40,143 nt of DNA. Source: Collimonas sp. OK242 (lineage in GTDB: Bacteria; Pseudomonadota; Gammaproteobacteria; Burkholderiales; Burkholderiaceae_D). This document shows, piece by piece, positions 2 to 14,057 of this stretch; positions within the stretch are counted from its first letter, which is position 1; the number at the start of each line of letters is the position of its first letter. The stretch covers positions 1-40,143 of the forward strand of contig NZ_FNOR01000027.1 of NCBI RefSeq assembly GCF_900107095.1, written 5' to 3'. Both the position numbers and the translations under genes were made by a program. Below the pieces are notes generated by a model that was given only the letters and a program-made list of their open reading frames with translations, did no database searches and was not told the DNA's origin.

Positions 2-376
2 ATGAACATGACGCCGTTGATCGACGTCATGCTGGTGCTGATCATCATGCTGATCATCACGATTCCGATCCAGAATCACGCCATCAAGCTGAACATGCCG
101 ACCGGTAATCCGCCGCCGCCACTGGCCTTGCCGGTGGTGGACACGGTGGATATCGATCCGGCTGGCACGGTGATGTGGAACGGTACGCCGATGGCCAGCC
201 GTGCGGAACTGGAAGACCGCTTGAAGACGGTGGTGGCAGGCGGCAATATCGATGAAGTGCATCTGCGGCCGAACAAGCTGGTGGAGTACAAGTCGGTCGC
301 TGCCGTGATGGCGTCGGCGCAGCGGTTGGGCGTCACCAAGATCGGCATCGTCGGCAATGAGCAATTCATGGAGTAA
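2..376 (+). CDS. exbD: ExbD/TolR-family biopolymer transport protein, 5' end cut off by the window
   Basis: This is the C-terminal 124 residues of an ExbD-type protein. ExbD sits in the inner membrane with ExbB and passes proton-motive force to TonB, which opens TonB-dependent outer-membrane receptors. The visible part starts inside the conserved TPLIDVMLVLIIMLI segment, which carries the membrane aspartate of ExbD/TolR. The rest is a periplasmic domain ending in a stop at 374-376. Full-length family members have about 15-20 more residues before this point, so the ATG at position 2 is probably internal and the true start lies upstream of the window. The gene is followed by a 200-bp gap and then the amino-sugar operon. 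Family assignment is firm. That it serves chitooligosaccharide uptake is inference from position. Confidence 0.9.
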   Translation: MNMTPLIDVMLVLIIMLIITIPIQNHAIKLNMPTGNPPPPLALPVVDTVDIDPAGTVMWNGTPMASRAELEDRLKTVVAGGNIDEVHLRPNKLVEYKSVAAVMASAQRLGVTKIGIVGNEQFME

Positions 377-463
377 TTACGGTAATCAGGATAGCGAATA
401 GATTTTTTAATCAGAAAACGTCAAGTAACGTCAGGTTCACGGGTGTTTGTAGCAGATATTGTG

Positions 464-511
464 AATACCACTTAAAGACCGGTTGACAGCCGCTTCCTGT
501 CCTCATACAGT
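464..511 (+). promoter_or_regulatory. Predicted promoter with operator-like block for the nag operon
   Basis: A TTGACA box at 483-488 and TACAGT at 506-511 are separated by exactly 17 nt, a good sigma-70 pair (6/6 and 4/6 matches). Just upstream are AATACCA at 464-470 and AGACCGGT at 476-483. The second resembles one arm of the GntR/DasR-type consensus (AGACCAGT), and ATACC/AGACC form half-sites 11 nt apart. The whole block matches the promoter of the chitinase at 9585-10844 (see 10957-11004) at 37 of 48 positions with no gap. Transcription would begin near 518, so the TTG at 521 is unlikely to start the first gene. The operator role is inferred. Confidence 0.65.
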
Positions 512-577
512 AAATCCAGTTTGTTTCCGCTAAAAAGAACAATGCCCGTGGCAGATGAAAGCGATGGATGCAACAAC

Positions 578-1501
578 ATGATTGAATACCTGATTGGTGT
601 CGATGGCGGTGGAACCGGAACTCGCGTGCGGGTTGCGCGCGCCGAACGTGCTGCCCACCACGATGGCGCCGTACTTGCGCTGGGCAAGGGTGGTCCGTCC
701 GGGCTGATGCATGGCGTGGAACTAGCCTGGTCTACCGTGCTGGAAACGCTCAACGCCGCATTTTCCAGCGCCGGCCTGGTGCGGCCCGCGCTAGAGAAAA
801 TGGCCATCGGCATAGGTCTGGCGGGCGTTAACAACAGGCAGTGGGCTGCAGATTTTTCTGCAAAAAATCCTGGCTTTGGCGACGCTGTGCTGGAAACCGA
901 TGCATTTACCACTTTGCTCGGCGCGCATCAGGGCCGTCCTGGCGTCATCATCGCCATCGGTACCGGCAGCGTCGGTGAAGTGCTGACTGCGGACGGCAAG
1001 CGGCGCGAAGTCGGCGGCTGGGGTTTTCCTGCCGGCGACGAAGCGGGCGGCGCCTGGCTGGGCATGCGTGCCATCACGCATGCCCAGCAGGTGCTGGATG
1101 GGCGGGCGCCGGGCAGCGATTTTGCGCGCGCGCTGTTTCATTTCTGCGAACGCGCCGGCACCGCGCATTTCGATAGCCATCGCGATAGCATGTTCGCCTG
1201 GCTGACAGGCGCCAGCCAGACCAGTTACGCGCAACTGGCGCCGATCGTGGTCGCCTACGCCGAGCGGGATCAGTCTGCGCGTCAGATCATGCTGGCCGCC
1301 GGCCAGGAAGTAGCCAAAATCGCCGCTGCGCTCGATCCTTCGGGGCAGCTGCCGATTGCATTGTGCGGCGGTCTCGCCGCGCACTTACAAGCGTACCTGC
1401 CCGCACCGTTGTTGGCGCTTGTCGTCCAGCCGCATGCAGATGCGGCAGCGGGCGCCTTGCGGCTGATCGATGAAAGATTAAAAGGAAAGCAAACATGCTA
1501 G
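578..1501 (+). CDS. nagK: N-acetylglucosamine kinase, BadF/BadG/BcrA/BcrD ATPase family
   Basis: A 307-residue ATP-dependent sugar kinase expected to phosphorylate cytoplasmic GlcNAc to GlcNAc-6-phosphate, the substrate of NagA two genes downstream. It has the ASKHA fold signatures: the first phosphate loop DGGGTGTR at residues 9-16, a probable catalytic Asp108 (LETDAF), a second phosphate loop GTGS at 128-131, and GGWGFPAGDEAGG at 147-158, typical of this GlcNAc kinase family. I chose ATG 578 because the protein then begins directly with the conserved first strand. ATG 542 is possible, and TTG 521 lies almost on the predicted transcription start. The stop overlaps the start of the regulator gene by 7 nt, so the two are translationally coupled. 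A kinase here fits entry of unphosphorylated sugar. No PTS gene is seen in the window. Confidence 0.85.
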   Translation: MIEYLIGVDGGGTGTRVRVARAERAAHHDGAVLALGKGGPSGLMHGVELAWSTVLETLNAAFSSAGLVRPALEKMAIGIGLAGVNNRQWAADFSAKNPGFGDAVLETDAFTTLLGAHQGRPGVIIAIGTGSVGEVLTADGKRREVGGWGFPAGDEAGGAWLGMRAITHAQQVLDGRAPGSDFARALFHFCERAGTAHFDSHRDSMFAWLTGASQTSYAQLAPIVVAYAERDQSARQIMLAAGQEVAKIAAALDPSGQLPIALCGGLAAHLQAYLPAPLLALVVQPHADAAAGALRLIDERLKGKQTC

Positions 1502-2229
1502 CTCAGATAGAAAAACTCAAGCCGGATGCCGCTAGCGACACGCCTTTGTACCTGCAACTGGTCAACCGGCTTTCAGAGCAGATCAATGGCGGCGTCTGGC
1601 AACCGGACGAGGCATTGCCATCCGAACGCATCCTGGCCGAATCGCTGGAAATCTCCCGGGTGACAGCACGTAAAGCGATCGACGTCTTGTGCGAGCGCGG
1701 CATGCTGATCAGGAAGCGCGGTTCCGGCACCTACATCACGCCCAAGCTTGAGCAGCCGCTGTCGCGCCTGACCAACTTCAGCGAAGAATTGCGCCAACGC
1801 GGTTTCCGCCCCGGCTCGCAATGGCTGTTGCGCGAAACCGGAATCGCGGTTGCCGAGGAAATCCTGGCGCTGGGATTGTCGCCGAATACAGTGGTGTCGC
1901 GCCTGAAACGCTTGCGTACCGCTGACGACGTGGTGATGGCGATCGAAACCACCACCATTCCAGCGCACTACCTGCCGGATCCGAAAGCAGTAACGGACTC
2001 TCTGTACGTCCATCTGGAGACGCTCGGCGTGGCGCCGGTGCGGGCGCTGCAGCATATCCGCGCCATCAACGCCAGCGCCGACCAGGCCAAGCTGGCCGAC
2101 ATCAAGACCGGTGCTGCGATGCTGCATATCACGCGCGTCGGTTATCTGGAAAACGGTACGGCGATCGAACTGTCGCATTCGTATTGCCGCAGCGACTACT
2201 ACGACTTCGTTGCGGAGTTGCGTCGATGA
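1495..2229 (+). CDS. GntR-family transcriptional regulator of amino-sugar genes (NagQ/DasR/NagR type)
   Basis: A 244-residue HutC-subfamily GntR regulator. Residues about 17-80 form the winged helix-turn-helix, with PLYLQLVNRLSEQI, the LPSERILAESL helix and the SRVTARKAIDVL recognition helix, ending in the wing RGSGTYI. Residues about 95-235 are a UTRA effector domain. Relatives in amino-sugar operons bind GlcNAc-6-P or GlcN-6-P and repress nag and chitinase genes. Here it lies between the kinase and nagA, overlapping the kinase stop by 7 nt and the nagA start by 4 nt (ATGA). It is the natural candidate for the paired operator-like blocks at 464-511 and 10957-11004. The effector and the sites are inferred, while the family is clear. 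Confidence 0.88.
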   Translation: MLAQIEKLKPDAASDTPLYLQLVNRLSEQINGGVWQPDEALPSERILAESLEISRVTARKAIDVLCERGMLIRKRGSGTYITPKLEQPLSRLTNFSEELRQRGFRPGSQWLLRETGIAVAEEILALGLSPNTVVSRLKRLRTADDVVMAIETTTIPAHYLPDPKAVTDSLYVHLETLGVAPVRALQHIRAINASADQAKLADIKTGAAMLHITRVGYLENGTAIELSHSYCRSDYYDFVAELRR

Positions 2230-3392
2230 CGAGTGAACGCCAGCCCGGCGACGACGCAGCTAGCAATTTCAAAGGTGAGGTCAAAGGTGAAGTCAGAGGC
2301 AACGTACTAACCCCGCAAGGCTGGGTCAACGGCATCCTGCATTTCGACGGCCGCATCAGCGCGATTGAAGGCGCAGCGGTCGATCCCGACGATAACCGCG
2401 ATCCTTACATCCTGCCTGGATTCATCGATTTGCACGTGCATGGCGGCGGCGGCAAAGACATCATGGATGGCGGCGACGCGGCCCATGTCATCTCTGCGAT
2501 CCATGCGCGGCACGGCACTACCAGCATGCTGGCCACCACCATGACGTCGCCGCTAAGCGACCTGGAGCAAGCGCTGGAAGCTTGCGGCCATGCCTGCCGC
2601 CAGCGCCGCGCCGGCAGCGCGCGCGTGCTCGGCGTGCATCTGGAAGGCCCCTATATCAATCCTGGAAAACTCGGCGCCCAGCCGGATTTTGCGCAGGAGG
2701 CAAGCTTGCAGAAAGTGGCGCGCCTGAGCGCGATGGCGCCGATAAAACTGATTACGGTCGCGCCTGAAATTGCCGGCCATCTGGATGTGGTGCGCACCCT
2801 CAGCGAATCCGGCATGCGGGTGCAGATCGGCCATACCTTGGGCAGTTATGAAGATGGGGTGCAAGCGTTGCAGCATGGCGCGACCGGATTTACCCATCTG
2901 TTCAACGCCATGACCGGATTCCAGGCACGCGCCCCCGGCATGGTGGGTGCAGCACTGGCGCATGCCCGCTATTCGGAACTGATTCCCGATCTGTTGCATG
3001 TGCATCCCGGCGCCATCAAGGCAGCCCTGCGCGCCATCCCCAGGTTGTACTGCGTGACCGACTCGACTGCCGCCACCGGCATGCCTGACGGCGAGTACAT
3101 GCTAGGGCGGCAGCGGGTCCACAAATGCATGGGCGGGGTCAGGCTGGCTGACGGCACGCTGGCAGGCAGCACGCTGACCATGGATCAGGCCTTGCGCAAT
3201 CTGGTCGGGCTTGGCCTGAGTCTGGCGGATGCGTCGCTGCGGGTATCGACCTATGCCGCAGATCACCTGGGCTTGCCGGAACGAGGTCGTCTGGCAAGCG
3301 GCTGCAGCGCCGATCTGGTGGTGCTGGACCGGCAGCTCAATTTAACCGCGGTTTATGTAGAAGGAGAACAGATTGACCTCGCAGAAGTTTAG
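2226..3392 (+). CDS. nagA: N-acetylglucosamine-6-phosphate deacetylase
   Basis: A 388-residue amidohydrolase that removes acetate from GlcNAc-6-phosphate to give glucosamine-6-phosphate. Metal and catalytic residues are in place: HVH (His70, His72) in LHVHGGGG, Glu140 in LEGPY, His203 in IGHT, His224 in THLFNAM and the catalytic Asp279 in TDST. ATG 2226 overlaps the regulator stop (ATGA). The core begins at GNVLTPQGWV near residue 25. The first ~24 residues are an extension containing a short repeat (FKGEVKGEVRGNV), encoded by three approximate 12-nt units at 2269-2304. A start further in is possible, but no better ATG is seen before the core. It overlaps the next gene by 20 nt. Confidence 0.95.
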   Translation: MTSERQPGDDAASNFKGEVKGEVRGNVLTPQGWVNGILHFDGRISAIEGAAVDPDDNRDPYILPGFIDLHVHGGGGKDIMDGGDAAHVISAIHARHGTTSMLATTMTSPLSDLEQALEACGHACRQRRAGSARVLGVHLEGPYINPGKLGAQPDFAQEASLQKVARLSAMAPIKLITVAPEIAGHLDVVRTLSESGMRVQIGHTLGSYEDGVQALQHGATGFTHLFNAMTGFQARAPGMVGAALAHARYSELIPDLLHVHPGAIKAALRAIPRLYCVTDSTAATGMPDGEYMLGRQRVHKCMGGVRLADGTLAGSTLTMDQALRNLVGLGLSLADASLRVSTYAADHLGLPERGRLASGCSADLVVLDRQLNLTAVYVEGEQIDLAEV

Positions 3393-4410
3393 TTCACAGA
3401 TGTTGCAGGAAGCCTGTTCCGCAGCTGAGCACGTAGCGTTGCAGCTGGGGCGCGACGGCGACCGCTATGCCGCGCTTGGCGCCGCCCTGCGCAGCGCGCA
3501 ACCGGCCAGCGTGCTGACGGTGGCGCGCGGCAGTTCCGATCATGCCGCCAACTATTGCGCTTACCTGATCATGGCGCGCCTTGGCCGCATCGTGGCGTCG
3601 CTGCCGATGTCGCTGGTTACCTTGTACAAGTCACCCTTGTTGACGCGCGATGCCTTGGCCATCGCGATTTCGCAATCGGGCCAGAGCCCGGATGTGATCG
3701 AACCTATCCGTTATTTCCGCGCAGGCGGCGCAACCACGGTAGCTTTGGTCAACGAGATTGCTTCACCGTTGGCGGCCAGTGCGGAGTGGGCTTTGCCTTT
3801 GCATGCCGGTCCTGAATTGAGTGTAGCTGCAACCAAAAGCTTCATCACCAGCCTGGTGGCTGCGGCACGACTGGTGGCGCATTGGCAGGACGATCCCGAG
3901 TTCCTGGCGCAGATCGACGCGTTGCCGGCCGCGTTGCAGCAGGCTACCGAGCTTGACTGGTCGGCCGCGATTGACGTATTGGCGCCTGCTTCCCGCATCA
4001 TGGTGGTTGGGCGCGGTGCCGGTTTTCCGGTGGCGTTGGAGGCAGCTCTCAAGTTCAAGGAAACCTCGGTGCTGCAGGCAGAGGCATTTAGCGGCGCCGA
4101 GATCAAGCACGGCCCGATGGCTTTGATTAACGAAGGCTATCCTTTATTGATTTTCGCTACGCGCGGGCCGACGCAAGCGAGCCTGATCAAGCTGGCCGAT
4201 GAAATGCGCGGCCGCGGCGCACGCGTGTTGCTGGCAGCGCCCGCCGATGTCAGCGAACGCGATTTGACCTTGCCGGTGGCGGCTACGCCGGATCTGGATC
4301 CTATCGTGGCAATTCAGGCGTTTTACGTGATGGCGGCAAATCTGTCCATCGCGCGCGGACTCGATCCGGACCGTCCGCGGCACCTGAGCAAAGTGACCAA
4401 GACCAATTAA
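3373..4410 (+). CDS. nagB-II: SIS-domain glucosamine-6-phosphate deaminase, NagB-II type
   Basis: A 345-residue protein of two sugar isomerase (SIS) domains, like the isomerase half of GlmS without the glutaminase half. It is predicted to convert glucosamine-6-phosphate to fructose-6-phosphate and ammonia, standing in for hexameric NagB. SIS1 (about 40-170) has ARGSSDHAANY and ISQSGQSPD for phosphate binding and AATKSF. SIS2 (about 205-335) has VGRGAGFPVALEAALKFKE and the EIKHGPMALI loop. The start is TTG 3373: a perfect AAGGAG at 3361-3366 lies 6 nt upstream and inside the end of nagA, whereas ATG 3400 has no ribosome site. AgaS-type isomerases are related, but the linkage to nagA and the kinase favours NagB-II. 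Confidence 0.88.
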   Translation: MTSQKFSSQMLQEACSAAEHVALQLGRDGDRYAALGAALRSAQPASVLTVARGSSDHAANYCAYLIMARLGRIVASLPMSLVTLYKSPLLTRDALAIAISQSGQSPDVIEPIRYFRAGGATTVALVNEIASPLAASAEWALPLHAGPELSVAATKSFITSLVAAARLVAHWQDDPEFLAQIDALPAALQQATELDWSAAIDVLAPASRIMVVGRGAGFPVALEAALKFKETSVLQAEAFSGAEIKHGPMALINEGYPLLIFATRGPTQASLIKLADEMRGRGARVLLAAPADVSERDLTLPVAATPDLDPIVAIQAFYVMAANLSIARGLDPDRPRHLSKVTKTN

Positions 4411-4462
4411 TCGATAGGCGCAGGCCGGCGCGGCTGTTGCGCCGGGCAGATGGAGCAGTGAT

Positions 4463-6019
4463 ATGAGTAGTAGCGTGAACCGCACCGATAGCAAATCCGA
4501 CCACCAAGGCAAACTGAGTGCGGCGCGCCGGATCGCCGGGCAACTGATCATGATCCGCATGCCGGGCACGGTGCTGGATGAGGACAGCGCGCAGTTTTTG
4601 CGCGACAACCATATCCGTGCGGTCTGCCTGTTCCGCCAGAACATGGTGAATGCCGAACAACTGAGCAAGCTGACCGCCGACCTGCGCGCCGTGATGGGCC
4701 CGAATGCATTGATCGGCATCGATCAGGAAGGCGGCGCCGTGGTGCGCGCGACATGGCTGCCGGCGCCACCCTCAGCCATGTCGCTCGGCGCCGCCGACGA
4801 TGTCGCGCTGGCGCGCGCAGTTGGCGCTGCCGTGGCGCGCGGCGTCAAATCGCTGGGCTTCAACTGGAATTTCGCGCCGGTGCTGGATCTCAACAACAAT
4901 CCGGCCAATCCTGTCATCGGCGAGCGCTCTTTCGGTGCCGATCCGCAGCGCGCTACCGAACTGGCGCTGGCGTGGATGGAAGGCAGCCTGGAACAGGGCG
5001 TGGCTTGCTGCGTCAAGCATTTCCCCGGCCATGGCGACACCCACGTCGATTCTCATCGCGACCTGCCGACGGTAGCCAAGTCGCGCGCCGCGCTTGATGC
5101 GCTGGAGCTGGCGCCGTTCAAAGCGGCGATGCGCGCGCCGGCCATGATGAGCGCGCATATCGTTTATCCTGCGCTCGACCCTGAACATCCGGCGACCCTG
5201 TCGCGCAAAATCCTCACCGATCTGCTGCGCAAAGAATGGGATTATCGCGGCGTCATCATTACCGACGGCATGGACATGCAAGCGATCGCCGGCCGTTACG
5301 GCGTCGGCAACGCGGCGGTGCGAGCCCTGGCCGCCGGCGCCGACATGGTCATGGCGCTGGGTAATCGCAATACGCAAGAAGAAACCCTGGTGTCCTTGAC
5401 GACGGCATTGGCTAGCGCCGCCGTCGACAGCGAACTGGGCAGTGCTGCGCTTGCGGCCCGGCTGGCGCGGCTGGATGGCTTGGCCGCCACCTATCCTTGT
5501 GCGGCAGGCGCCTACTCCTTCCTCACAGAAGCTGCCGATGAACGCCTGATGGCAGATGCATGGCGCCGCGGCCTGACGCTGGTCGGCAATCCTCAACCTT
5601 TAGCCGCGGCTACCAAAATCCGCCTGCTGGCCTGCGCCGATGCTGCCGGCGACGGCGTGGCCGAAGCGGGCTTGCCGGCCGCGGCGATCGCCGCGGTGCT
5701 GGCACGCCGCTACGATGTCGAACTGGTGACCTTCGAGGATGACGACAGTTTTGATTGGGCCAGCTTGCCGGACGATGGCAGGACAGTGATCCTGGCGTCC
5801 ACCACGCGCTTGCGCTATGGCGCAAAGGCCAGGCAAAGCTGGCGTCCCGATCTCCATCTGGCGCTGTGGAATCCGTTCCAGACGCTGGATATAGCGGCGC
5901 CGGCGCTGATTACCTACGGCTTTGCCGCCGCGGCGCTGGAGGCAGTCGCCGACTGGCTGGCGGGAAATCTCGAAGCCCGCGGCAAGATGCCGGTGGCGAC
6001 CGTGAATGCGCCGCAATAA
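4463..6019 (+). CDS. Cytoplasmic beta-N-acetylhexosaminidase, GH3 family (NagZ-like, two-domain)
   Basis: A 518-residue GH3 enzyme that should release terminal GlcNAc from chitobiose/chitooligosaccharides or from GlcNAc-anhydromuramyl muropeptides. Residues ~20-340 are the NagZ-like barrel. IDQEGGAVVR is at 86-95, and the loop KHFPGHGDTHVDSH at 185-198 supplies the Asp196/His198 acid-base dyad typical of GH3 hexosaminidases. TDGMDMQAI at 267-275 carries the nucleophile, probably Asp268. Some 170 further C-terminal residues make it longer than E. coli NagZ (about 340) and like the two-domain Bacillus form. No signal peptide or lipobox is visible, so it should act in the cytoplasm after import. 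ATG 4463 has TGGAG at 4451-4455. The gap after nagB-II is 52 nt. Confidence 0.88.
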   Translation: MSSSVNRTDSKSDHQGKLSAARRIAGQLIMIRMPGTVLDEDSAQFLRDNHIRAVCLFRQNMVNAEQLSKLTADLRAVMGPNALIGIDQEGGAVVRATWLPAPPSAMSLGAADDVALARAVGAAVARGVKSLGFNWNFAPVLDLNNNPANPVIGERSFGADPQRATELALAWMEGSLEQGVACCVKHFPGHGDTHVDSHRDLPTVAKSRAALDALELAPFKAAMRAPAMMSAHIVYPALDPEHPATLSRKILTDLLRKEWDYRGVIITDGMDMQAIAGRYGVGNAAVRALAAGADMVMALGNRNTQEETLVSLTTALASAAVDSELGSAALAARLARLDGLAATYPCAAGAYSFLTEAADERLMADAWRRGLTLVGNPQPLAAATKIRLLACADAAGDGVAEAGLPAAAIAAVLARRYDVELVTFEDDDSFDWASLPDDGRTVILASTTRLRYGAKARQSWRPDLHLALWNPFQTLDIAAPALITYGFAAAALEAVADWLAGNLEARGKMPVATVNAPQ

Positions 6020-6083
6020 TCATCCAATGCCGTATTCGTAACAAGCTGAACAACAAGCACTTTTACCCACGGTGGCCGCCGCT

Positions 6084-7394
6084 ATGAGCAATCAAGATAA
6101 ACCCGAACACCATCCCGCACTTTGGGTGCCGACGCTGTATTTTGCCGAGGGCCTGCCGTATTTTGTGGTGGCGACCATCGCCGGCCTGATGTACAAGAGC
6201 ATGGGCATGGCCAACGACCAGATCGCCCTGTGGACCGGGATGCTGGGGTTCGTCTGGGTCTTCAAGCCGCTCTGGAGTCCGTTCCTGGAAGCGGCGCGCA
6301 GCAAGAAATCGATTGTGCTGCTGTTCCAGTTTTTCGGCGGCGCCAGTCTCGGGCTGGTGGCGCTGGCGCTGCACCTGCCGAATTATTTTGCAGTCAGCAT
6401 CGCCTTGCTGGGATTGGTAGCGATTGCCTCGGCGACGCATGACATCGCCGCCGACGGCCTGTACATTGCCAGCCTGAGTTCGACTCAGCAGGCAAGCTAT
6501 GCCGGCTGGCAGGGCGGGTTTTACAATGTCGCCCGTTTCTTCTCGCTGGGCGGATTGGTGGTGCTGGCCGGCTATTTCGAGAAACGCATGGCGGTGGCGC
6601 AAGCCTGGAGTCTGATCTTCGGCATGCTCGCGGTCAGCATGCTGCTGCTGGCGATCTATCATTTCTGGGCCTTGCCGGCCGGCCGCAATGTGGCGCGGCC
6701 GGCGGGCGGCAAGGGTACGATGAGGGGCGTCTGGCTCACCTTGCGCGACGTGATCATCGATTTTTTCCAGAAACCAGGCATCTGGCTGGCGATCGCATTC
6801 ATCATCCTGTTTCGCGCCGGCGAAGGCCAGATCACCACCATCGGCCCGTTGTTCCTGCGTGCGGCGCGGGCTGAGGGCGGATTGGGTTTGGCGACGGCGG
6901 AAGTCGGCGCAGTGTACGGCACGCTGGCTACGGTAGCATTCATCTGCGGCAGCCTGCTGGGCGGCTATTTCACGGCCTGGCGCGGTTTGCGGCGCAGCAT
7001 GTTCTTCTTGATCCTGGCGATGAACTTGCCGAATCTCGCTTATTTTTTCCTGAGCACCGCCATGCCCAGCAGCCTCGGCGTCATCGCCGCCGCCTTGAGC
7101 CTGGAAATGTTCGGCTACGGTTTCGGTTTCGTCGGACTGATCCTGTTCATCATGCAGGAAGTCGCGGTTGGCAAATACCAGATGGCGCACTATGCGCTTG
7201 GCACCGGCATCATGCAGCTGGGCTACGTATTGTTCAAGATGCTCAGCGGAACCATCCAGGGCGCGCTCGGTTATCAGCATTTTTTCCTGTGGGTGCTGAT
7301 TTCCGCGATACCGGTTTTGCTGTTGTCACGCGTAGTACCGATCGGGCGGCACCAACAGCCGGCCGATGCGGCGGCGCAGCCTGCTGCGGTCTGA
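6084..7394 (+). CDS. AmpG-like major facilitator transporter, probable amino-sugar/oligosaccharide permease
   Basis: A 436-residue polytopic inner-membrane protein with about 12 hydrophobic segments. Its start (LWVPTLYFAEGLPYFVV), the LYFAEGLP motif and the KPLWSPFLEA stretch after the second segment are those of AmpG-like MFS permeases. AmpG proper imports GlcNAc-anhydromuramyl muropeptides. Here the location after a cytoplasmic GH3 hexosaminidase and before two secreted polysaccharide hydrolases suggests uptake of GlcNAc, chitobiose or short chitooligomers. The substrate is inferred. ATG 6084 was chosen over GTG 6072, and neither has a strong ribosome site. The downstream gene follows within 10 nt of the stop, so it belongs to the same operon. 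Confidence 0.8.
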   Translation: MSNQDKPEHHPALWVPTLYFAEGLPYFVVATIAGLMYKSMGMANDQIALWTGMLGFVWVFKPLWSPFLEAARSKKSIVLLFQFFGGASLGLVALALHLPNYFAVSIALLGLVAIASATHDIAADGLYIASLSSTQQASYAGWQGGFYNVARFFSLGGLVVLAGYFEKRMAVAQAWSLIFGMLAVSMLLLAIYHFWALPAGRNVARPAGGKGTMRGVWLTLRDVIIDFFQKPGIWLAIAFIILFRAGEGQITTIGPLFLRAARAEGGLGLATAEVGAVYGTLATVAFICGSLLGGYFTAWRGLRRSMFFLILAMNLPNLAYFFLSTAMPSSLGVIAAALSLEMFGYGFGFVGLILFIMQEVAVGKYQMAHYALGTGIMQLGYVLFKMLSGTIQGALGYQHFFLWVLISAIPVLLLSRVVPIGRHQQPADAAAQPAAV

Positions 7395-7401
7395 GCCGGT
7401 G

Positions 7402-8337
7402 ATGATGCATTTCTCTCGCCGCTTGCTGGCGCTGGTGTCGATGCTGGCTCCGGCCAGCGCCATGGCCGACGTTGCGGCCAATACTGTGACCAACGCTCCC
7501 GGCATATTTTTTGACGATTTTCACTACGCCGATACTGCAGCATTGGTAGCCGGCGGCTGGAAAATCCGCGATCAAGCAGGCCATCCGGGCATCGAGCATG
7601 GGAAGTGGGGGCCGTCCACCATCAGCCTGGTCGACGATCCGCAACACAGCGGCCAGCGGCTGTTGCGCCTGGATGCGCGCACCGACGGTACGGCTGAGGA
7701 CACGTACCAGGCGCAACTCTGTCATCAACGTAAATATTTCGAAGGCACCTACGCCGCGCGGGTGCGTTTCGCCGACGCGCCTGTGCAAGGACCTGGCGGC
7801 GATCTGGTGGTGGAATCTTTTTACACTTCCAGTCCGCTGAAACACGATTTTGATCCGCAATACAGCGAGCTGGATTGGGAATACCTGCCCAATGGCGGCT
7901 GGGGAAATCCGCATAGCAGACTGTATAGCGTGTCTTGGCAAACGGTGCAGATGGAACCCTGGAACGCGTTCAACCAGGTACATGAAGAACAGCGCGCGCT
8001 GGGCGGCTGGCATACCTTGCTGACGCAAGTGGCGGCCGGAAAAATTCGCTACTTCCTGGACGGCGTGCAGCTGGATGAACACGGCGGCCGTAATTATCCG
8101 GCACAGCCGATGTCGATCAATTTCAATTTGTGGTTCTCGCCCAGCGGCGTGCTGCCCGACACCAAGGCAGAGCGGCGCTACCAGCAAGACCTGGCCTGGG
8201 TGATGCATGCCAAAGATCTGGTGCTGTCGCCGGCGCAGGTCGATGCTGCGGTTCGTGCCTACCGGCGGACAGGGGTGCACCAGGTCGATACGGTAAAAGC
8301 CATGACGCCGCCATTGCCATCCAATTGCGATTTCTAA
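7402..8337 (+). CDS. Secreted GH16-like glycoside hydrolase, substrate unknown
   Basis: A 311-residue exported protein. Residues 1-22 form a Sec signal peptide with a probable cut after ASAMA. The remainder looks like a concanavalin-type GH16 fold: FFDDF near the N-terminus, RVRFADAP strands, and the catalytic-type motif SELDWEY at 155-161. Glu156, Asp158 and Glu160 there match the E-x-D-x-E form (lichenase/XTH/Crh type) rather than the bulged laminarinase form E-x-D-x-x-E. I cannot tell whether it cuts beta-glucan or another polymer. Co-transcription with the chitinase suggests fungal wall glucan. Adjacent ATGs at 7402 and 7405 are equally possible. It starts 7 nt after the transporter stop and ends 22 nt before the chitinase. 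Confidence 0.7.
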   Translation: MMHFSRRLLALVSMLAPASAMADVAANTVTNAPGIFFDDFHYADTAALVAGGWKIRDQAGHPGIEHGKWGPSTISLVDDPQHSGQRLLRLDARTDGTAEDTYQAQLCHQRKYFEGTYAARVRFADAPVQGPGGDLVVESFYTSSPLKHDFDPQYSELDWEYLPNGGWGNPHSRLYSVSWQTVQMEPWNAFNQVHEEQRALGGWHTLLTQVAAGKIRYFLDGVQLDEHGGRNYPAQPMSINFNLWFSPSGVLPDTKAERRYQQDLAWVMHAKDLVLSPAQVDAAVRAYRRTGVHQVDTVKAMTPPLPSNCDF

Positions 8338-8359
8338 CAGTCTTGATGAAGCGAGAACC

Positions 8360-9523
8360 ATGATGAAATTGATGCGACTATCGATGTTGTTCGCGGCGCT
8401 TGTGCCTGCCATGGCGATGGCAGCGCCTTACAAGGTGGTGGCTTACTATTTGCCATCGCAACAGCGTCAGTATTCCGCAGCAGATATCGACGCCGGCAAG
8501 CTGACCCATCTGAATTATGCGTTTGCCTTGATCAAGGATGGTGAAATCGTGGCCGACCAGTCCTCGGGCACCGACCAAAGTGCGCGCGATTTTATCGTGC
8601 TGCGCGGCTTGAAAAGCCGGAGTCCCAAGCTGAAAACTCTGATCTCGGTGGGCGGCTGGGCTGGCTCCAGGGAGTTTTCAGATATAGCGCTGACGCCGCA
8701 ATCGCGCAAGAAATTTGCCGACAGCGCCGTGGCGTTCCTGCATCAAAACGGCTTCGACGGCGTCGACATCGATTGGGAATTTCCGGTAGCCGGGGGCGAT
8801 GCCGCCAATATCGCGCGGCCGGTAGACAAGCAGAACTACACACTGTTGCTGCAAACGCTACGCGAACGGCTCGACGCAGCGGGAAAGCAGGAACATCGCA
8901 GCTATCTGCTGACAGCCGCGATCGGCAATAACCGGGGATTTTTCCAGAATACCGAAATGGCCAAGGTCGCGGCGATTCTCGATTGGGCCAATACCATGAC
9001 CTACGACTTTAGCGGGTCCTGGAGCAAGTTTGCCGGACACGTAGCGCCTTTGTACAATGACCCGGCGCTGGCGCGGCCAGATGCCGACCCGGCATTCAAT
9101 GTCAGCAGCACGGTCGAAATGGCGCTGGCGGCTGGCATTCCAGCGACCAAGCTGGTGCTGGGCATGCCGTTCTATGGCTACAGCTGGAAGCAATGCGGCG
9201 CGCTACAACACGGCCAGCATCAGGATTGCAACGGCAAAGGGCGCGGCGGCGTGGAGCCGGGCGAACTGGATTTCGCTGACATAAGCGGCACGCTGGTCAA
9301 TCGCAACGGCTTCACGCGCTACTGGAATGACGCCGCCAAAGTACCTTATCTGTTCAATCCCGATACAGGCGAATTTGTCAGCTATGACGATGTCGAATCG
9401 CTGGATTACAAAATCAAATACCTGAAACAGATGGGGCTGGCCGGCGCGATGTTCTGGCAGCTGTCTGCGGATCGCGATGCAGTGTTGCTCGATAAAGTGG
9501 CGAAGGATCTGTTGAAGCCATAG
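8360..9523 (+). CDS. Secreted GH18 chitinase, single catalytic domain
   Basis: A 387-residue exported chitinase. Residues 1-21 form a signal peptide (probable cut after AMAMA). The rest is a GH18 barrel with LKTLISVGGW (SxGG) near 91-100 and the full active-site motif FDGVDIDWE at 132-140, in which Glu140 is the proton donor and Asp138 the partner. It also has TMTYDFSG in the sixth strand region and AMFWQLS near the C-terminus for the substrate-binding Trp. There is no carbohydrate-binding module. Two adjacent ATGs (8360, 8363) could serve as start. It is the last gene of the nag operon and ends at the bidirectional terminator at 9533-9566. It should degrade chitin outside the cell and feed the uptake and GH3 steps encoded upstream. 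Confidence 0.92.
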   Translation: MMKLMRLSMLFAALVPAMAMAAPYKVVAYYLPSQQRQYSAADIDAGKLTHLNYAFALIKDGEIVADQSSGTDQSARDFIVLRGLKSRSPKLKTLISVGGWAGSREFSDIALTPQSRKKFADSAVAFLHQNGFDGVDIDWEFPVAGGDAANIARPVDKQNYTLLLQTLRERLDAAGKQEHRSYLLTAAIGNNRGFFQNTEMAKVAAILDWANTMTYDFSGSWSKFAGHVAPLYNDPALARPDADPAFNVSSTVEMALAAGIPATKLVLGMPFYGYSWKQCGALQHGQHQDCNGKGRGGVEPGELDFADISGTLVNRNGFTRYWNDAAKVPYLFNPDTGEFVSYDDVESLDYKIKYLKQMGLAGAMFWQLSADRDAVLLDKVAKDLLKP

Positions 9524-9532
9524 CAATCAGAG

Positions 9533-9566
9533 ACAAAAAACCGGTTCCCGAGAACCGGTTTTTTGT
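9533..9566. terminator. Bidirectional intrinsic terminator between the convergent chitinases
   Basis: A perfect 15-bp stem (9533-9547 with 9552-9566) closes a 4-nt CCGA loop. The GC core CCGGTTC/GAACCGG is flanked by A6 on the left and T6 on the right, so a U-run follows the hairpin on either strand. It lies 10 nt after the plus-strand chitinase stop and 19 nt before the minus-strand chitinase stop. Confidence 0.93.
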
Positions 9567-9584
9567 TTTGCGGCAGTGTTTTTC

Positions 9585-10844
9585 TTACAGTCCCAAGCTC
9601 GAAATAAAGGCATTGGTGAAGCCCAAAGTGCCGGCTGTGCCGTAGGTGTTGCAGGTCGGCGAAGCTGAGCCCGGCGCGCAATCCCGGTCACGGTCGAAGG
9701 ACCAGTAATGGATGCCGGCCAAGCCGTTCTGCTGCGCGAAATTCACCAGCGTCGCGAGATCGGCGATAGAGAATGTTTCGTTGGCAGAGTCGTTGCCGCC
9801 GATCATTGGCGTTACTTCGATCTGTTTGTAAGGCAGATTGTATTGCGTGTGCAGATCGATTGCCGATTGCACCGCCGATGCCCCCATGTCGCAGCTGCCG
9901 TCGCTCTTGGTCATGCAATTGCCGCCGGCCGGGCTGCCGTAGTCCATCGCCATCAGGTTGATGGTGTAGTTGCTCAGGCCGTAAGCCTGGATTGCCTGCA
10001 TCACTTCAACCCCGTAGTAACCCAGGCTAGGCGATACATTGCCGCCCAATGTCGCCAGCGTGAAGCTGAAACGCAGGTTTGGATAAGTCGCTTGCGCTGT
10101 TTTCACACGCAGCACCAGGTTATTGATATCCGCCTGGGTCTGGCCGGCTTCAATATCGAAATCTATGCCGACCAGGTTGGCCGAATAATAGGTCTGGATA
10201 AATTTCAGGAAGTCGGCATCGCTGGTGCAGGTAAACGAACCTGCCGCGCCGCCGGTGGAGACAATGTACTTCTTGCCGGCGTTGACGAAGGCTTGCACAT
10301 TGGCTGCCGCAAACGCCGAGGCCGATACGCCGCCCCAGTTTTCGCTACCGCAGGCGCCGGTCGCAAAAGCCCAGGTCAGGGTGGCGAGTTTGGCTGGCAT
10401 GGCGCTCAGTACGGTCTGCGTGCTGCCGGTGACGGCGGTGCTCATGGCGTAGGTATTCCAGTTCAGATTGATGTTGCCATCTTTGTACGGACTGAAAACG
10501 AAGCCGGCCGGTGTGGTGCCGCCGCCCGGAGGAGGCGGTGGTGGTGGCGGCGTTACTGTGCCGCCGCAGTTGGCGACGATGGTCCATGGCTGGCCCGAGC
10601 CGGAGCCGCCATTGTTGGTCGATGGATTGTTCCCCTGGGTCCACCAGTTGGCTTTGTAGTTGACGCCGTTGTAGCTGACGGTGGCGCCGCCGGTATAGGC
10701 CACGCTGGCGTCCCAGGCTGCATAACAAGTCACCGTCGTCGCTGCTTGCGCGCTCGCTATCAATGGGCTGGCATTGGCTCCAACGGTCACGATTGCGCTG
10801 CACGCAAGGCTGAGCATGAGGCCGTGTATGAGTTTCAGTTTCAA
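9585..10844 (-). CDS. Secreted GH18 chitinase with N-terminal chitin-binding module (CBM5/12)
   Basis: A 419-residue exported enzyme. Residues 1-34 form a signal peptide (cut after ASAQA). Residues 36-94 make a CBM5/12 module with aromatic residues (YAAWD, YKANWWTQGNNP, QPWTIV). A run of eight prolines plus Gly/Thr (about 99-112) is the linker, and residues 114-419 form a GH18 domain with the active-site motif VGIDFDIE at 225-232 (Glu232 acid). The first Asp of the usual DxxDxDxE motif is Val225. I chose the TTG start at 10844 because CAGGAG lies 6 nt upstream (10851-10856) and the protein then opens with a normal signal peptide. ATG 10817 would shorten it by nine residues. It faces the other chitinase and has its own nag-like promoter at 10957-11004. 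Confidence 0.92.
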   Translation of the reverse strand: MKLKLIHGLMLSLACSAIVTVGANASPLIASAQAATTVTCYAAWDASVAYTGGATVSYNGVNYKANWWTQGNNPSTNNGGSGSGQPWTIVANCGGTVTPPPPPPPPGGGTTPAGFVFSPYKDGNINLNWNTYAMSTAVTGSTQTVLSAMPAKLATLTWAFATGACGSENWGGVSASAFAAANVQAFVNAGKKYIVSTGGAAGSFTCTSDADFLKFIQTYYSANLVGIDFDIEAGQTQADINNLVLRVKTAQATYPNLRFSFTLATLGGNVSPSLGYYGVEVMQAIQAYGLSNYTINLMAMDYGSPAGGNCMTKSDGSCDMGASAVQSAIDLHTQYNLPYKQIEVTPMIGGNDSANETFSIADLATLVNFAQQNGLAGIHYWSFDRDRDCAPGSASPTCNTYGTAGTLGFTNAFISSLGL

Positions 10845-10920
10845 TTTTTTCTCCTGAGAAGGCTGGTCGGGCAGCGTGGGAAGGTCGGCTACCGAAAGCA
10901 GGCAACATCTGATCATCATC

Positions 10921-10948
10921 TTCGATATTTCCATACGGCAATATCGAA
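10921..10948 (-). promoter_or_regulatory. Inverted repeat at the 5' end of the chitinase leader
   Basis: TTCGATATT at 10921-10929 and AATATCGAA at 10940-10948 are perfect 9-bp arms around a 10-nt spacer. The predicted transcription start is near 10950, so the repeat would occupy about +2 to +30. It could be a 5' stem-loop that stabilises the mRNA or a downstream operator. The sequence alone cannot decide. Confidence 0.5.
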
Positions 10949-10956
10949 TTAAGGGC

Positions 10957-11004
10957 ACTGTAAGAGCGCAAAAAGTGGCTGTCAATCTGTATCTAACTGG
11001 TATT
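10957..11004 (-). promoter_or_regulatory. Predicted promoter with nag-type operator-like block for the chitinase
   Basis: Read on the minus strand, AATACCA (11004-10998), TTGACA (10985-10980) and TACAGT (10962-10957) occur with spacings of 12 and 17 nt, identical to the block before nagK. Of 48 aligned positions 37 are the same, including GCC right after TTGACA. The upstream half-sites ATACC and ATACA are 11 nt apart, as in the nag copy. Shared promoter and operator sequence at two separate chitin-related transcription units implies shared control, most likely by the GntR regulator at 1495-2229. Confidence 0.65.
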
Positions 11005-11236
11005 GCATCAATAAATTTGTGGTCTCATTCTGGTGTGATCGATATAGCTATAAGCAATTGTTTATATTGATTTTTATTGAAAATCGCCAGACTGTTTTTT
11101 TGATAAGTGGACTGGTTGCTTTTTTTCGATCCGGAGTGGATATGCAAGATGTGGAGTAGTTGCTTGGCGACGTCCCAATGCGGAATTCACGTCAAAAACC
11201 ACTTCAACGGCAACTTCGAACGCAGCACCAACGCCA

Positions 11237-11291
11237 AAAGAAAAAGCCGCCGCCGTGTTCGCAGATTTTATTGCGAACACGGCGGCGGCTT
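11237..11291 (-). terminator. Intrinsic terminator of the M16 protease gene
   Basis: A perfect 20-bp, GC-rich stem (11244-11263 with 11272-11291) surrounds an 8-nt loop. On the minus strand it is followed by a T-rich run (11237-11245, TTTTTCTTTT-like), and it begins 19 nt after the protease stop codon. Confidence 0.92.
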
Positions 11292-11309
11292 CTTTGGGGG
11301 GACCAGACT

Positions 11310-14057
11310 TTAGGGCTTCGCCACCATCGCAGTATTTGCTTTTGCCTTGGCTTCATCGCGCACAATCACCACGCTCAGTTGGGCGGGGGCTATGTGTTTG
11401 CGGAAGGCTTGGTTGACTTGTTCCACTGTCAGGGCGCTGATCTTGTCTTCGATCTGTTTGCTCCAGGCGAAGGTGCGGTTGAGGTCCAGCAGCCTGGCCC
11501 AGCCGGCGCTGAGGGCGCTGTCCTGGGCGCGGGCGCGCTGGTTTTCTTGCAGGATGCCGGATTTGGCGCGGGCTAGTTCGTCGGCGCTAAAACCTTCTTT
11601 GAGTGCGCGCGCCAGTTCTTCTTTGACGGCCGTATCGACCTTGCCCAGGTTTTGCGGCGCGGCGATGGCTTGTACCGAGAACCTGGCGGCGCGGCTGATG
11701 GCGCTGATCTCTACCGATGAACCGATGCCGTAGGAGAGGCCTTCTTTTTGGCGTACTCTGTCCATCAAGCGCGATTTCAGGCTGCCGCCGCCAAACAGGT
11801 AGTTGGCGACCATCATTGCCGGATAATCGGCATCGTCGTCACGCATGTCCAGGTTCTGGCGCGCCACGTAAAAGCCGTTTTCCTTGTCTGGGGAATTGAT
11901 GGTTTTCTGCAGCGGCGCCACGTCGAAGTTCTGCCGGATCACGCGCTGGTACGGCGCCGCGCTTTTCCAGGCGCCGAATTCGTCCTGGACGACCTTGGAG
12001 ACAGCTGCGACGTCGAAATCGCCGACGATAGCCAGTTCGCCTTGCGAGGCGCCATAGAAATCGTGATGAAAGGCGCTGACATCGGCCAGGGTGGCGGCCT
12101 GGATCGCGGCGATTTGCTGATCCACGCTTTGCGCCGCCAGCCAGTGGCCTTGCGGATATTTGTTGAAATGCTGGGCGATGGCTTCGGCCGCCAGCGTGTT
12201 CGGCTCGTTGCGCGATGCTTCCAGGCCGACCAGGGATTCTTTGCGCAGGCGATCGAATTCAGCCGGATCGAAGCGCGGCTGCTTGAGTACGCTGGCGACC
12301 AGTTTCAGGGCGGCGGGCAGATTGCTGCGCGTGGTCTGGAATTGCGTCAGGTTGCCGCTGATCTTGAGTTTGGAAAACTCGTCGGCCAGCTGTTCGCGCG
12401 TCAGCGTGCTGCTGCCGCGCATCAGCATGGCGTCGGCCAATTCGGATGCAGTCTTTTTACCGAACAGGGTTTTTTCGTCGCCCCATTGCAAGTTCAGTTT
12501 GACTGAGACGGTTTCGCCGCGCGTCTTTTTCGGCAGCAAGGCGAGTTTCAAACCGCCCACCTGCGAGCGCTGGGTACGGGCATCGACATTGGCTTGCGAC
12601 GGATCGAAAGCTTCACCGTCGGCGATCGCTTGCTGTGGCTCGTAGTCTTTGAGCAGTCCGGCCACGCTTGGCGCTGCCGGAACATCGGCGCGTTGCAATT
12701 GGTCTTCCGGCAAGAACATGCCGACCGTGCGGTTATCGCGGGTGAAGTAATGCGCAGCCGCCGTCGCCACCTGTGCCGAGGTCACCTTGTTGGAGCGGTC
12801 GCGGCCGAGGAATAGCAAACGCCAGTCGCCTAGCGCAATCGTGCTGGACATGGCGACGCCGACGCGTTGATGATCGTTCAGCAGTTTTTCAAAGCTGTTG
12901 GCATTGGCCAGGCGGACCCGTTCCATCTCTTCCGGCGTCGGCGGGGTTTTTGCAAATTGCTCGACACCGTCGATCAAGGCCTGCCGTACCGGCTCGATCG
13001 GCTCGCCTTTCTTGACTACCGCGGCAATGATTTCCAGGCCCGGCGCATAGCCGCTCATCTCGTAGTTGAACACGGCGGTAGCTTTGCCGGTTTCCACCAG
13101 CGATTTATGCAGGCGGCCGTTGGGGGTGTCCGCCAGAATCGTTCCGGCGTAGGACAGGGCGTCGCTGTCAGGATGCAATTCGCTTGGAATCTTGTAGGCT
13201 ACGGCGACGATCTGCACATCGCCCTGGCGCCGCACGGTCACGCTGCGTTCGCCGTCCTGGGTCGGTTCCACGGTCCAGAAGTCGCGCATCTTGCGAGTCG
13301 GCTTCGGCAATTTTCCGAAGGCCTGGCTGACCCATGCCAGAGTCTTGGCGGGGTCAAATTTACCAGCGATCAGCAGCACCGCATTATCCGGCTGGTAGTA
13401 GGTTTTATAGAAGGCTTGCAGGTTTTCTATCCTGACGTTTTCGATATCGCTGCGGTTGCCGATGGTCGGCTTGCCGTAGTTGTGCCAGTCGTAAGCCACG
13501 CCTTCCAAGCGCTTGATGAGGACGCCGAACGGCGAGTTCTCGCCCTGTTCGTATTCGTTGCGCACCACGGTCATTTCGCTGTCGAGGTCTTTCCTGGCGA
13601 TAAATGAATGCAGCATGCGATCGGCTTCCATGCCGATCGCCCATTTCAGGTTGTCGTCGCCGGCCTGGAAGATTTCGTAGTAATTGGTGCGGTCGACGTT
13701 AGTGGTTCCGTTGAACGACATGCCGCGCTGGCTGAAATCCTTCGGAATCGAAGGATGGGTCGGAGTACCCTTGAACATCAAATGCTCCAGCAAATGCGCC
13801 ATGCCGGTTTCGCCGTAATTCTCGAAGCGTGATCCGACCAGGTAAGTCATGTTGACCGTTACCGTAGGCTTGGAGGCATCGGGAAAGAGCAAGACTTTGA
13901 AGCCGTTGGCAAACTGGTATTCGGTGATGCCTTCAGCGGACGGACCCTGGGTCACGCCGGCCGGAAGTGCGGTTGCCGCTTCGGTGATGCCGATGAAACC
14001 GATGCCGCAGGCGGCTGCCAATAAGCAAGACAATAGGCGATTACGGAATAGATGCAT
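11310..14057 (-). CDS. Secreted M16-family zinc metalloprotease, two-domain (insulinase/pitrilysin type)
   Basis: A 915-residue exported protease. Residues 1-28 are a signal peptide (probable cut after ITEAA). The first M16 domain (about 45-260) carries the inverted zinc motif HLLEH at 88-92, with the usual downstream Glu in the VVRNEYEQGENSP segment. The second half (from about 510) is an M16-like domain without HxxEH, ending in the RMSxGLSYGIGSS-type substrate-clamping region (RQKEGLSYGIGSS). This is the active/inactive pairing typical of long PqqL-like periplasmic proteins. It would degrade peptides in the periplasm. The start ATG 14057 has GGAAA upstream. It is a single gene with its own terminator. 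The individual substrate is unknown. Confidence 0.9.
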   Translation of the reverse strand: MHLFRNRLLSCLLAAACGIGFIGITEAATALPAGVTQGPSAEGITEYQFANGFKVLLFPDASKPTVTVNMTYLVGSRFENYGETGMAHLLEHLMFKGTPTHPSIPKDFSQRGMSFNGTTNVDRTNYYEIFQAGDDNLKWAIGMEADRMLHSFIARKDLDSEMTVVRNEYEQGENSPFGVLIKRLEGVAYDWHNYGKPTIGNRSDIENVRIENLQAFYKTYYQPDNAVLLIAGKFDPAKTLAWVSQAFGKLPKPTRKMRDFWTVEPTQDGERSVTVRRQGDVQIVAVAYKIPSELHPDSDALSYAGTILADTPNGRLHKSLVETGKATAVFNYEMSGYAPGLEIIAAVVKKGEPIEPVRQALIDGVEQFAKTPPTPEEMERVRLANANSFEKLLNDHQRVGVAMSSTIALGDWRLLFLGRDRSNKVTSAQVATAAAHYFTRDNRTVGMFLPEDQLQRADVPAAPSVAGLLKDYEPQQAIADGEAFDPSQANVDARTQRSQVGGLKLALLPKKTRGETVSVKLNLQWGDEKTLFGKKTASELADAMLMRGSSTLTREQLADEFSKLKISGNLTQFQTTRSNLPAALKLVASVLKQPRFDPAEFDRLRKESLVGLEASRNEPNTLAAEAIAQHFNKYPQGHWLAAQSVDQQIAAIQAATLADVSAFHHDFYGASQGELAIVGDFDVAAVSKVVQDEFGAWKSAAPYQRVIRQNFDVAPLQKTINSPDKENGFYVARQNLDMRDDDADYPAMMVANYLFGGGSLKSRLMDRVRQKEGLSYGIGSSVEISAISRAARFSVQAIAAPQNLGKVDTAVKEELARALKEGFSADELARAKSGILQENQRARAQDSALSAGWARLLDLNRTFAWSKQIEDKISALTVEQVNQAFRKHIAPAQLSVVIVRDEAKAKANTAMVAKP

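Follow-up and report, generated by a model that had tools for sequence, protein, structure and literature searches.

We analysed a 40,143-nucleotide (nt) stretch of DNA from Collimonas sp. OK242 (contig NZ_FNOR01000027.1, positions 1–40,143; hereafter the window), in which two matched promoter blocks precede an N-acetylglucosamine (GlcNAc) utilization operon, nag, and a convergent chitinase gene. The blocks are best read as predicted operator-promoters of a NagQ-type (GntR/HutC) repressor regulon for chitin and GlcNAc use, relieved by GlcNAc 6-phosphate (GlcNAc-6-P) or glucosamine 6-phosphate (GlcN-6-P); judging from the sequence comparisons below, we give this reading a probability of roughly 0.87. 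Most likely, the control system is a further member of the known NagQ kind, with a three-promoter layout. The preliminary description of the window had proposed one operator read by the operon's own GntR, and this is still the best-supported explanation, given that the motif is the published NagQ motif and that the block accompanies the GntR gene from genome to genome.

In the proposed mechanism, the GntR protein (encoded at 1495–2229) would bind tandem AATACCA half-sites, spaced by 11 nt or one helical turn, that lie immediately before a near-consensus -35 box and may extend into it. Bound GntR would occlude the -35 region and block RNA polymerase at the nag operon, the convergent chitinase and a TonB-dependent receptor unit; since the GntR gene sits in the nag operon, repression there would be autorepression. 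GlcNAc-6-P or GlcN-6-P, made from imported GlcNAc, would release GntR, and chitin hydrolysis, uptake and catabolism would then rise together. The elements of the two blocks are:

464–470, plus strand: half-site 1 (AATACCA) of the nag operon operator; positions 2–6 are invariant in 55 representative sites chosen with this pattern
475–481, plus strand: half-site 2 (AAGACCG) of the nag operon operator, 11 nt downstream of half-site 1
483–488, plus strand: -35 box (TTGACA) of the nag operon, from sequence and promoter scan
486–492, plus strand: putative weak in-phase third half-site (ACAGCCG), overlapping the -35 box; best of 12 offsets
506–511, plus strand: -10 box (TACAGT) of the nag operon at 17-nt spacing, from sequence and promoter scan
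10998–11004, minus strand: half-site 1 (AATACCA) of the chitinase operator, from sequence and genome pattern scan
10987–10993, minus strand: half-site 2 (GATACAG) of the chitinase operator, read from the sequence
10980–10985, minus strand: -35 box (TTGACA) of the chitinase, from sequence and promoter scan
10976–10982, minus strand: putative in-phase third half-site (ACAGCCA) of the chitinase operator
10957–10962, minus strand: -10 box (TACAGT) of the chitinase, from sequence and promoter scan

Both blocks, reported earlier at 464–511 (plus strand) and 11004–10957 (minus strand), were recovered verbatim at those positions. Aligned without a gap they share 37 of 48 bases, as had been counted, and 25 of 36 outside the two promoter hexamers; dinucleotide-shuffled upstream regions reached 37 of 48 in 0 of 400 trials, with a best 48-base match of 30. 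The arrangement TTGACA-17-TACAGT is indeed present in each block, and the pair gave the top two scores among seven promoter-like matches in 300–11400 (shuffles averaged 4.7). The claimed 11-nt spacing of the half-sites holds, with the qualification that the second half-site is imperfect in each block. The site takes the form of a direct repeat, AATACCA-N4-RATACCN, abutting TTGACA-17-TAnAGT.

A 48-mer pattern derived from the pair matched only these two places in the 4.98-Mb genome at up to three mismatches, and its reversed control matched nowhere. With the shorter pattern AATACCANYTNRADACNNRTTGACA, also at up to three mismatches, three matches were found (control: 0), before nagK, the chitinase and a TonB-dependent receptor, as had been anticipated for a genome-wide scan. 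The third block (AATACCAGTTGAATGCCTATTGACAGCCACTTTTACGCTCCATAGAGT) lies on contig C25, 3796–3820, minus strand, with its first base 374 nt upstream of the receptor gene's start (TIGR01782, 1e-174, above cut-off). All three sites in this genome thus precede genes of GlcNAc or chitin type, the receptor being included on the strength of its predicted substrate. Shared control of the nag operon and the chitinase is therefore supported, but the regulon comprises at least three promoters instead of the two originally proposed, because the third block stands before the receptor on another contig. The two half-sites alone (AATACCANNNNDATACCA, up to three mismatches) formed an unspecific pattern, with 660 matches genome-wide against 419 for the reversed control. 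From its listed two-mismatch matches we read the two best and three with a -35 box. The two best, L003 (inside a long open frame) and L004 (between two frames, on the minus strand and pointing away from the next gene), were dropped since neither passes the pattern that includes the -35 box.

The block and the regulator occur together across the family. Among 195 sampled genomes, GntR was found in 85 at E ≤ 1e-75 and a stricter block (RATACCANTTRRATACCNRTTGACA, at most two mismatches) in 87, with no reversed-control match in all 195. The block is present in 85 of 85 genomes with GntR versus 2 of 110 without, while 108 have neither (Fisher p 6e-54, treating these related genomes as independent). 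These 108 lack GntR at E ≤ 1e-75, weaker homologues among them being left uncounted; the two block-only genomes, G032 and G149, hold weaker GntR homologues (1.2e-63 and 1.6e-58). The kinase block and the listed GntR are separated by 3.8 Mb on a 5.03-Mb contig in G102 (1.2 Mb the short way if circular) and lie on different contigs in G017, G025, G033, G081, G087, G106, G119, G126 and G150; in genomes with such separation, GntR is only 55–60% identical. At loci of named relatives (80 kept of 238 found), the block was present in 79 of 80 at up to three mismatches, and in the single miss, L301, GntR starts 183 bases from the contig end. Targets in relatives also include GH3 enzymes (L194, L195, L198), further chitinases, receptors, and DUF5009/HGSNAT-like proteins (L193, L196), as judged for 15 proteins run against Pfam. 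An OprD porin (L135) was set aside as a chance target, its three-mismatch site having no TTGACA.

Within the genus, GntR was found at E ≤ 1e-30 in 12 of 15 Collimonas genomes, our strain included; our strain has one such match, 100% identical to the GntR of Collimonas sp. OK307. The block precedes the chitinase orthologue in all 12 GntR-bearing genomes, and nagK in 11 of them (the exception is G007). A receptor block was likewise recorded in 11 of the 12: the receptor start was read in eight (G000, G002, G005, G006, G007, G009, G012, G013) and assigned in G003, G004 and G008 from the same 25-base block, while G011 had no receptor block in the AATACCANYTNRADACNNRTTGACA scan at up to three mismatches. 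Three genomes (G001, G010, G014) have no GntR even at E ≤ 1e-20 and no block, G010 giving a single three-mismatch match without a -35 box. They likewise have no chitinase at E ≤ 1e-40, so loss of the whole cluster describes them equally well. Paralogous chitinases at other loci (58–61% identity; L075–L080, L083) carry the block too. Other chitinase matches (58–73%; L074, L081, L082, L084–L087, L089) have no clear block, although L081 has a two-mismatch match on the opposite strand.

The preliminary description had called the direct repeats unusual, which is true of GntR proteins in general but not of NagQ. According to PMC4494728, in the part available, NagQ departs from other HutC regulators in that its motif is made of TGGTATT direct repeats; TGGTATT is the reverse complement of AATACCA, so the direct-repeat orientation is the expected one. 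A further source, also available in part, calls the motif tandem, places NagQ in alpha-, beta- and some gammaproteobacteria, and reports chitin genes (chiA, cdxA) in Reinekea (PMC5343134). Inverted, dre-type GntR sites were rejected for the window blocks and for the sites collected from relatives, all of which are direct repeats; the latter were gathered with a direct-repeat pattern. As in the comparative-genomic reconstructions of NagQ regulons available to us, the window has a GntR-family regulator of the HutC/UTRA subfamily with its gene beside nagA and a nagB-like gene (a SIS-domain deaminase, below cut-off), TGGTATT direct repeats, the second imperfect, and sites before GlcNAc and chitin genes, reaching to a chitinase. 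Unlike NagQ as described there, the window system has an operon that begins with a nagK-like kinase, takes in a TonB receptor along with GH3, GH16 and GH18 enzymes, and keeps a fixed distance between the operator and the -35 box that it abuts, a comparison made with the general description and not with published regulons one by one.

The nearest solved relative of the regulator is NagR/YvoA of B. subtilis (E 1.7e-41), with a DasR match at about 1e-21. Likeness to NagR/YvoA and Streptomyces DasR extends to HutC/UTRA sequence over nearly the whole length and to nag targets. In the available part of the NagR study, Arg38 and Arg48 read guanines and Gly69 sits in the wing (PMC4333415); all three are conserved in the window GntR. 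Among the 15 effector-contact residues taken from the same source, 10 are identical, T90S, I166L and A224S are conservative, and S88N and Y228C differ. Since the base-reading residues are conserved, TGGT half-sites could be recognised by the same reading head, the difference being their arrangement: the dre sites of NagR and DasR are palindromic (inverted TGGT...ACCA), whereas the window half-sites are direct repeats.

Two other groups of regulators invite comparison. NanR is a FadR-type GntR protein. In E. coli, it is reported to control three target operons from a (GGTATA)3 operator whose three tandem repeats are bound by three dimers (PMC8012715, in part), which sets a precedent for a triple tandem repeat; it resembles the window system in having tandem direct repeats of a GGTAT-type half-site in sugar-regulon operator DNA. 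Unlike the window regulator as predicted, its effector is sialic acid, and its repeats follow one another at less than half a turn of the helix, against one turn in the window. The LacI-family NagR and ROK-family NagC have palindromic motifs. The gammaproteobacterial chitin and GlcNAc regulons under these two follow the same pathway logic, as far as the available text shows (PMC5343134), but both regulators are unrelated to the window GntR.

We then considered what the two promoters share beyond the half-sites. The 163 distinct 48-mers collected were reduced to 55 representatives with spacers differing at more than 5 of 17 places (greedy spacer clustering, two thresholds). In these, unit 1 never departs from ATACC and unit 2 hardly ever from ATAC, TTGAC of the -35 box is present in all and the -10 box is TAnAGT-like, close to consensus in most; the conservation of the units and the -35 box is partly by construction, because the search patterns contained them, while the spacer and the -10 box lay outside the patterns. 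The start of the spacer resembles a repeat unit in 11-nt phase (ACCASTT): at offset 0 the mean, 3.85 of 7, exceeds those at the 11 other offsets, with z 10.9 against shuffled spacers, a null that ignores ordinary positional bias in promoters. For the 27 more divergent representatives, the in-phase third unit has a mean of 3.15 and z 4.7. The GCC noted earlier after TTGACA is present in both window blocks and fits this putative unit (ACAGCCG, ACAGCCA). One possible reading of the shared spacer is that a weak third half-site, in step with the 11-nt phase of the other two, overlaps the -35 box. We keep to this wording since offset +1, next to the in-phase one, scores above shuffled spacers as well (z 4.5 and 3.3), since an inverted half-site does so at offset 0 (z 5.5 and 3.4, with the mean peaking at offset -1), and since an earlier clustering that put 151 of 160 sites in one cluster, and was replaced by spacer clustering, gave p = 0.09 for the third half-site. 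A fuller version is tentative and, in our estimate, has about one chance in three: the operator would consist of three in-phase 11-nt repeats, the third running over the -35 box into the spacer, forming a fused 48-bp operator/promoter cassette before unrelated chitin genes family-wide, with repressor copies stacked across the -35 box along a single face of the DNA, one per helical turn.

Two further repeats were seen in other genera. At Undibacterium loci (L281, L283 and others), some promoters before TonB-receptor-like frames carry TTGGTATT right after the -35 box, which gives these promoters an inverted AATACCA half-site besides the two direct ones. In two genera with a GntR that is 57–58% identical and located away from nagK, another 11-nt-spaced repeat (ACCAGTGTAATACCA; L052 2273–2287, L053 1427–1441) stands on the opposite strand, about 60 nt past the 3' end of the GntR gene; it was dropped as a mark of autoregulation because it lies beyond that end.

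Several observations weigh against the NagQ-type repressor regulon, or against its breadth. The effector is uncertain because release of B. subtilis NagR from DNA by the phosphosugar was itself not observed, according to the available part of PMC4333415. Orthology to NagQ is presumed from a match to the published description of that regulator. The 85-of-85 association is inflated by shared ancestry and by the frequent location of the block and gntR in a single operon. A search of 18 relatives gave 63 pattern matches (50 at up to two mismatches) against 7 in the reversed control, so some three-mismatch matches there are due to chance. Some targets are not obviously chitin genes: an alginate-lyase-family protein (L128, with similar reading frames in L131 and L132), CBM6 and GH99-like proteins (L130, L133; GH99 below cut-off), a HAD phosphatase (L190), and a cupin/JmjC-like gene of G009 (L127 1540–2673, with a one-mismatch block at 1494, about 9 kb from the chitinase). 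The alginate-lyase, CBM6, cupin and HAD targets may reflect either a wider regulon or noise. Finally, the nag promoter of G007 has lost half-site 1 and has a degraded half-site 2, with the -35 box, spacer and -10 box spared. A 73-bp palindromic repeat (L136 8823–8895; G007:C1:1741822–1741894), with ends GGGGACAGAG...CTCTGTCCC, stops exactly where half-site 1 should begin; its matching rows number 8 in G007 (query included), 8 in G000 and 13 in G005, some overlapping on both strands.

The main rival holds that the block is an activator site, at which GntR or another factor beside the -35 box would bring in polymerase in response to GlcNAc or chitin. In its favour, activators too can occupy the position where the two strong half-sites end, immediately before the -35 box. 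NagR of Bacillus thuringiensis is called a dual regulator in the title of one paper (PMC6141813). With TTGAC in 55 of 55 sites (partly by pattern choice) and a -10 box near consensus in most, these promoters should need little help, which favours repression; NagR, DasR and NanR are moreover described as repressors in the sources available to us. We therefore consider activation unlikely. Slightly less probable still is that the block has a different reader (a LacI or ROK protein, or a second GntR paralogue) while the operon's GntR recognises something else. Several family genomes do have a second GntR, mostly at 55–62% identity, so readers may overlap, but the single match in our strain, the tracking of GntR by the block in every GntR-bearing genome and its absence from the three Collimonas without GntR all speak for the operon's own protein.

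If one promoter had recently been duplicated and had no operator function, that would explain why the spacers of the nag, receptor and chitinase promoters are alike within Collimonas. Across the sampled genera, though, the two AATACC units are near-invariant while most of the spacer diverges, which suggests that selection acts on the repeats; these units were in the search pattern, yet genomes without GntR gave almost no matches, and we regard duplication as quite improbable. Chance similarity of two ordinary sigma-70 promoters, which near-consensus hexamers in both could have produced, is refuted by the conservation of the block, the shuffling result and the genome-wide specificity, leaving it a negligible probability.

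The plus-strand operon has the order nagK-gntR-nagA-nagB-GH3-transporter-GH16-GH18, and the surrounding features are:

2–376, plus strand: ExbD-like frame, truncated at the contig start; probably the end of a receptor-tonB-exbB-exbD unit
542–1501, plus strand: BadF-type N-acetylglucosamine kinase (nagK-like), alternative start ATG 578; NF046058 NagK_SO3507 1.5e-46, below the curated cut-off
1495–2229, plus strand: GntR/HutC (UTRA) regulator, NagQ-like; PF07702 5.3e-37, PF00392 1.4e-16
2226–3392, plus strand: nagA, GlcNAc-6-P deacetylase; TIGR00221 above cut-off, probable ATG start, longest open frame from 2184
3373–4410, plus strand: SIS-domain GlcN-6-P deaminase, NagB-II-like; NF046059 4.5e-82, below cut-off
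4463–6019, plus strand: GH3 beta-N-acetylhexosaminidase; NF003740 above cut-off
6072–7394, plus strand: MFS transporter, AmpG-like type; below the NCBIfam cut-off
7366–8337, plus strand: GH16-like protein, start uncertain; PF00722 22.5 bits (cut-off 22)
8360–9523, plus strand: GH18 chitinase, final operon gene; PF00704 1.3e-81
9535–9564, no strand assigned: inverted repeat with flanking A and T runs, likely a bidirectional terminator between the convergent units; read from the sequence, not among the feature-scan matches
9585–10844, minus strand: GH18 chitinase with CBM5/12, facing the nag operon convergently and probably secreted; PF02839 above cut-off, PF00704 28.8 bits (slightly short of the 29.6 cut-off), probable TTG start

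In the relative G007, the genes after a receptor of the same kind are tonB, exbB and two exbD genes, and the nag operon comes next. By this gene order, taken from G007 because our strain has a contig gap there, the ExbD-like frame of the window fits the tail of the receptor unit that carries the third block. Elsewhere in the window, a very long terminator-like hairpin (20 pairs counted) at 11244–11291 is followed by T-rich sequence, downstream of an M16 peptidase gene.

An earlier paper (PMC4690342) describes chitinase loci A and B of Collimonas and, in its available part, makes no mention of this regulon. Our literature search found no paper that joins Collimonas, chitin and GntR, within a coverage outside which subscription papers may lie. 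Overall, these results lay out, in a form open to testing, how chitin use may be wired in Collimonas, soil bacteria that feed on living fungi, and G007, with its nag operator lost and its core promoter kept, offers a natural test of repression by the regulator. They also suggest a possible reason for the spacer shared by the two promoters, namely that the regulatory repeats may run through the -35 box. The same NagQ-type control is indicated in 87 of the 195 sampled genomes of the family.

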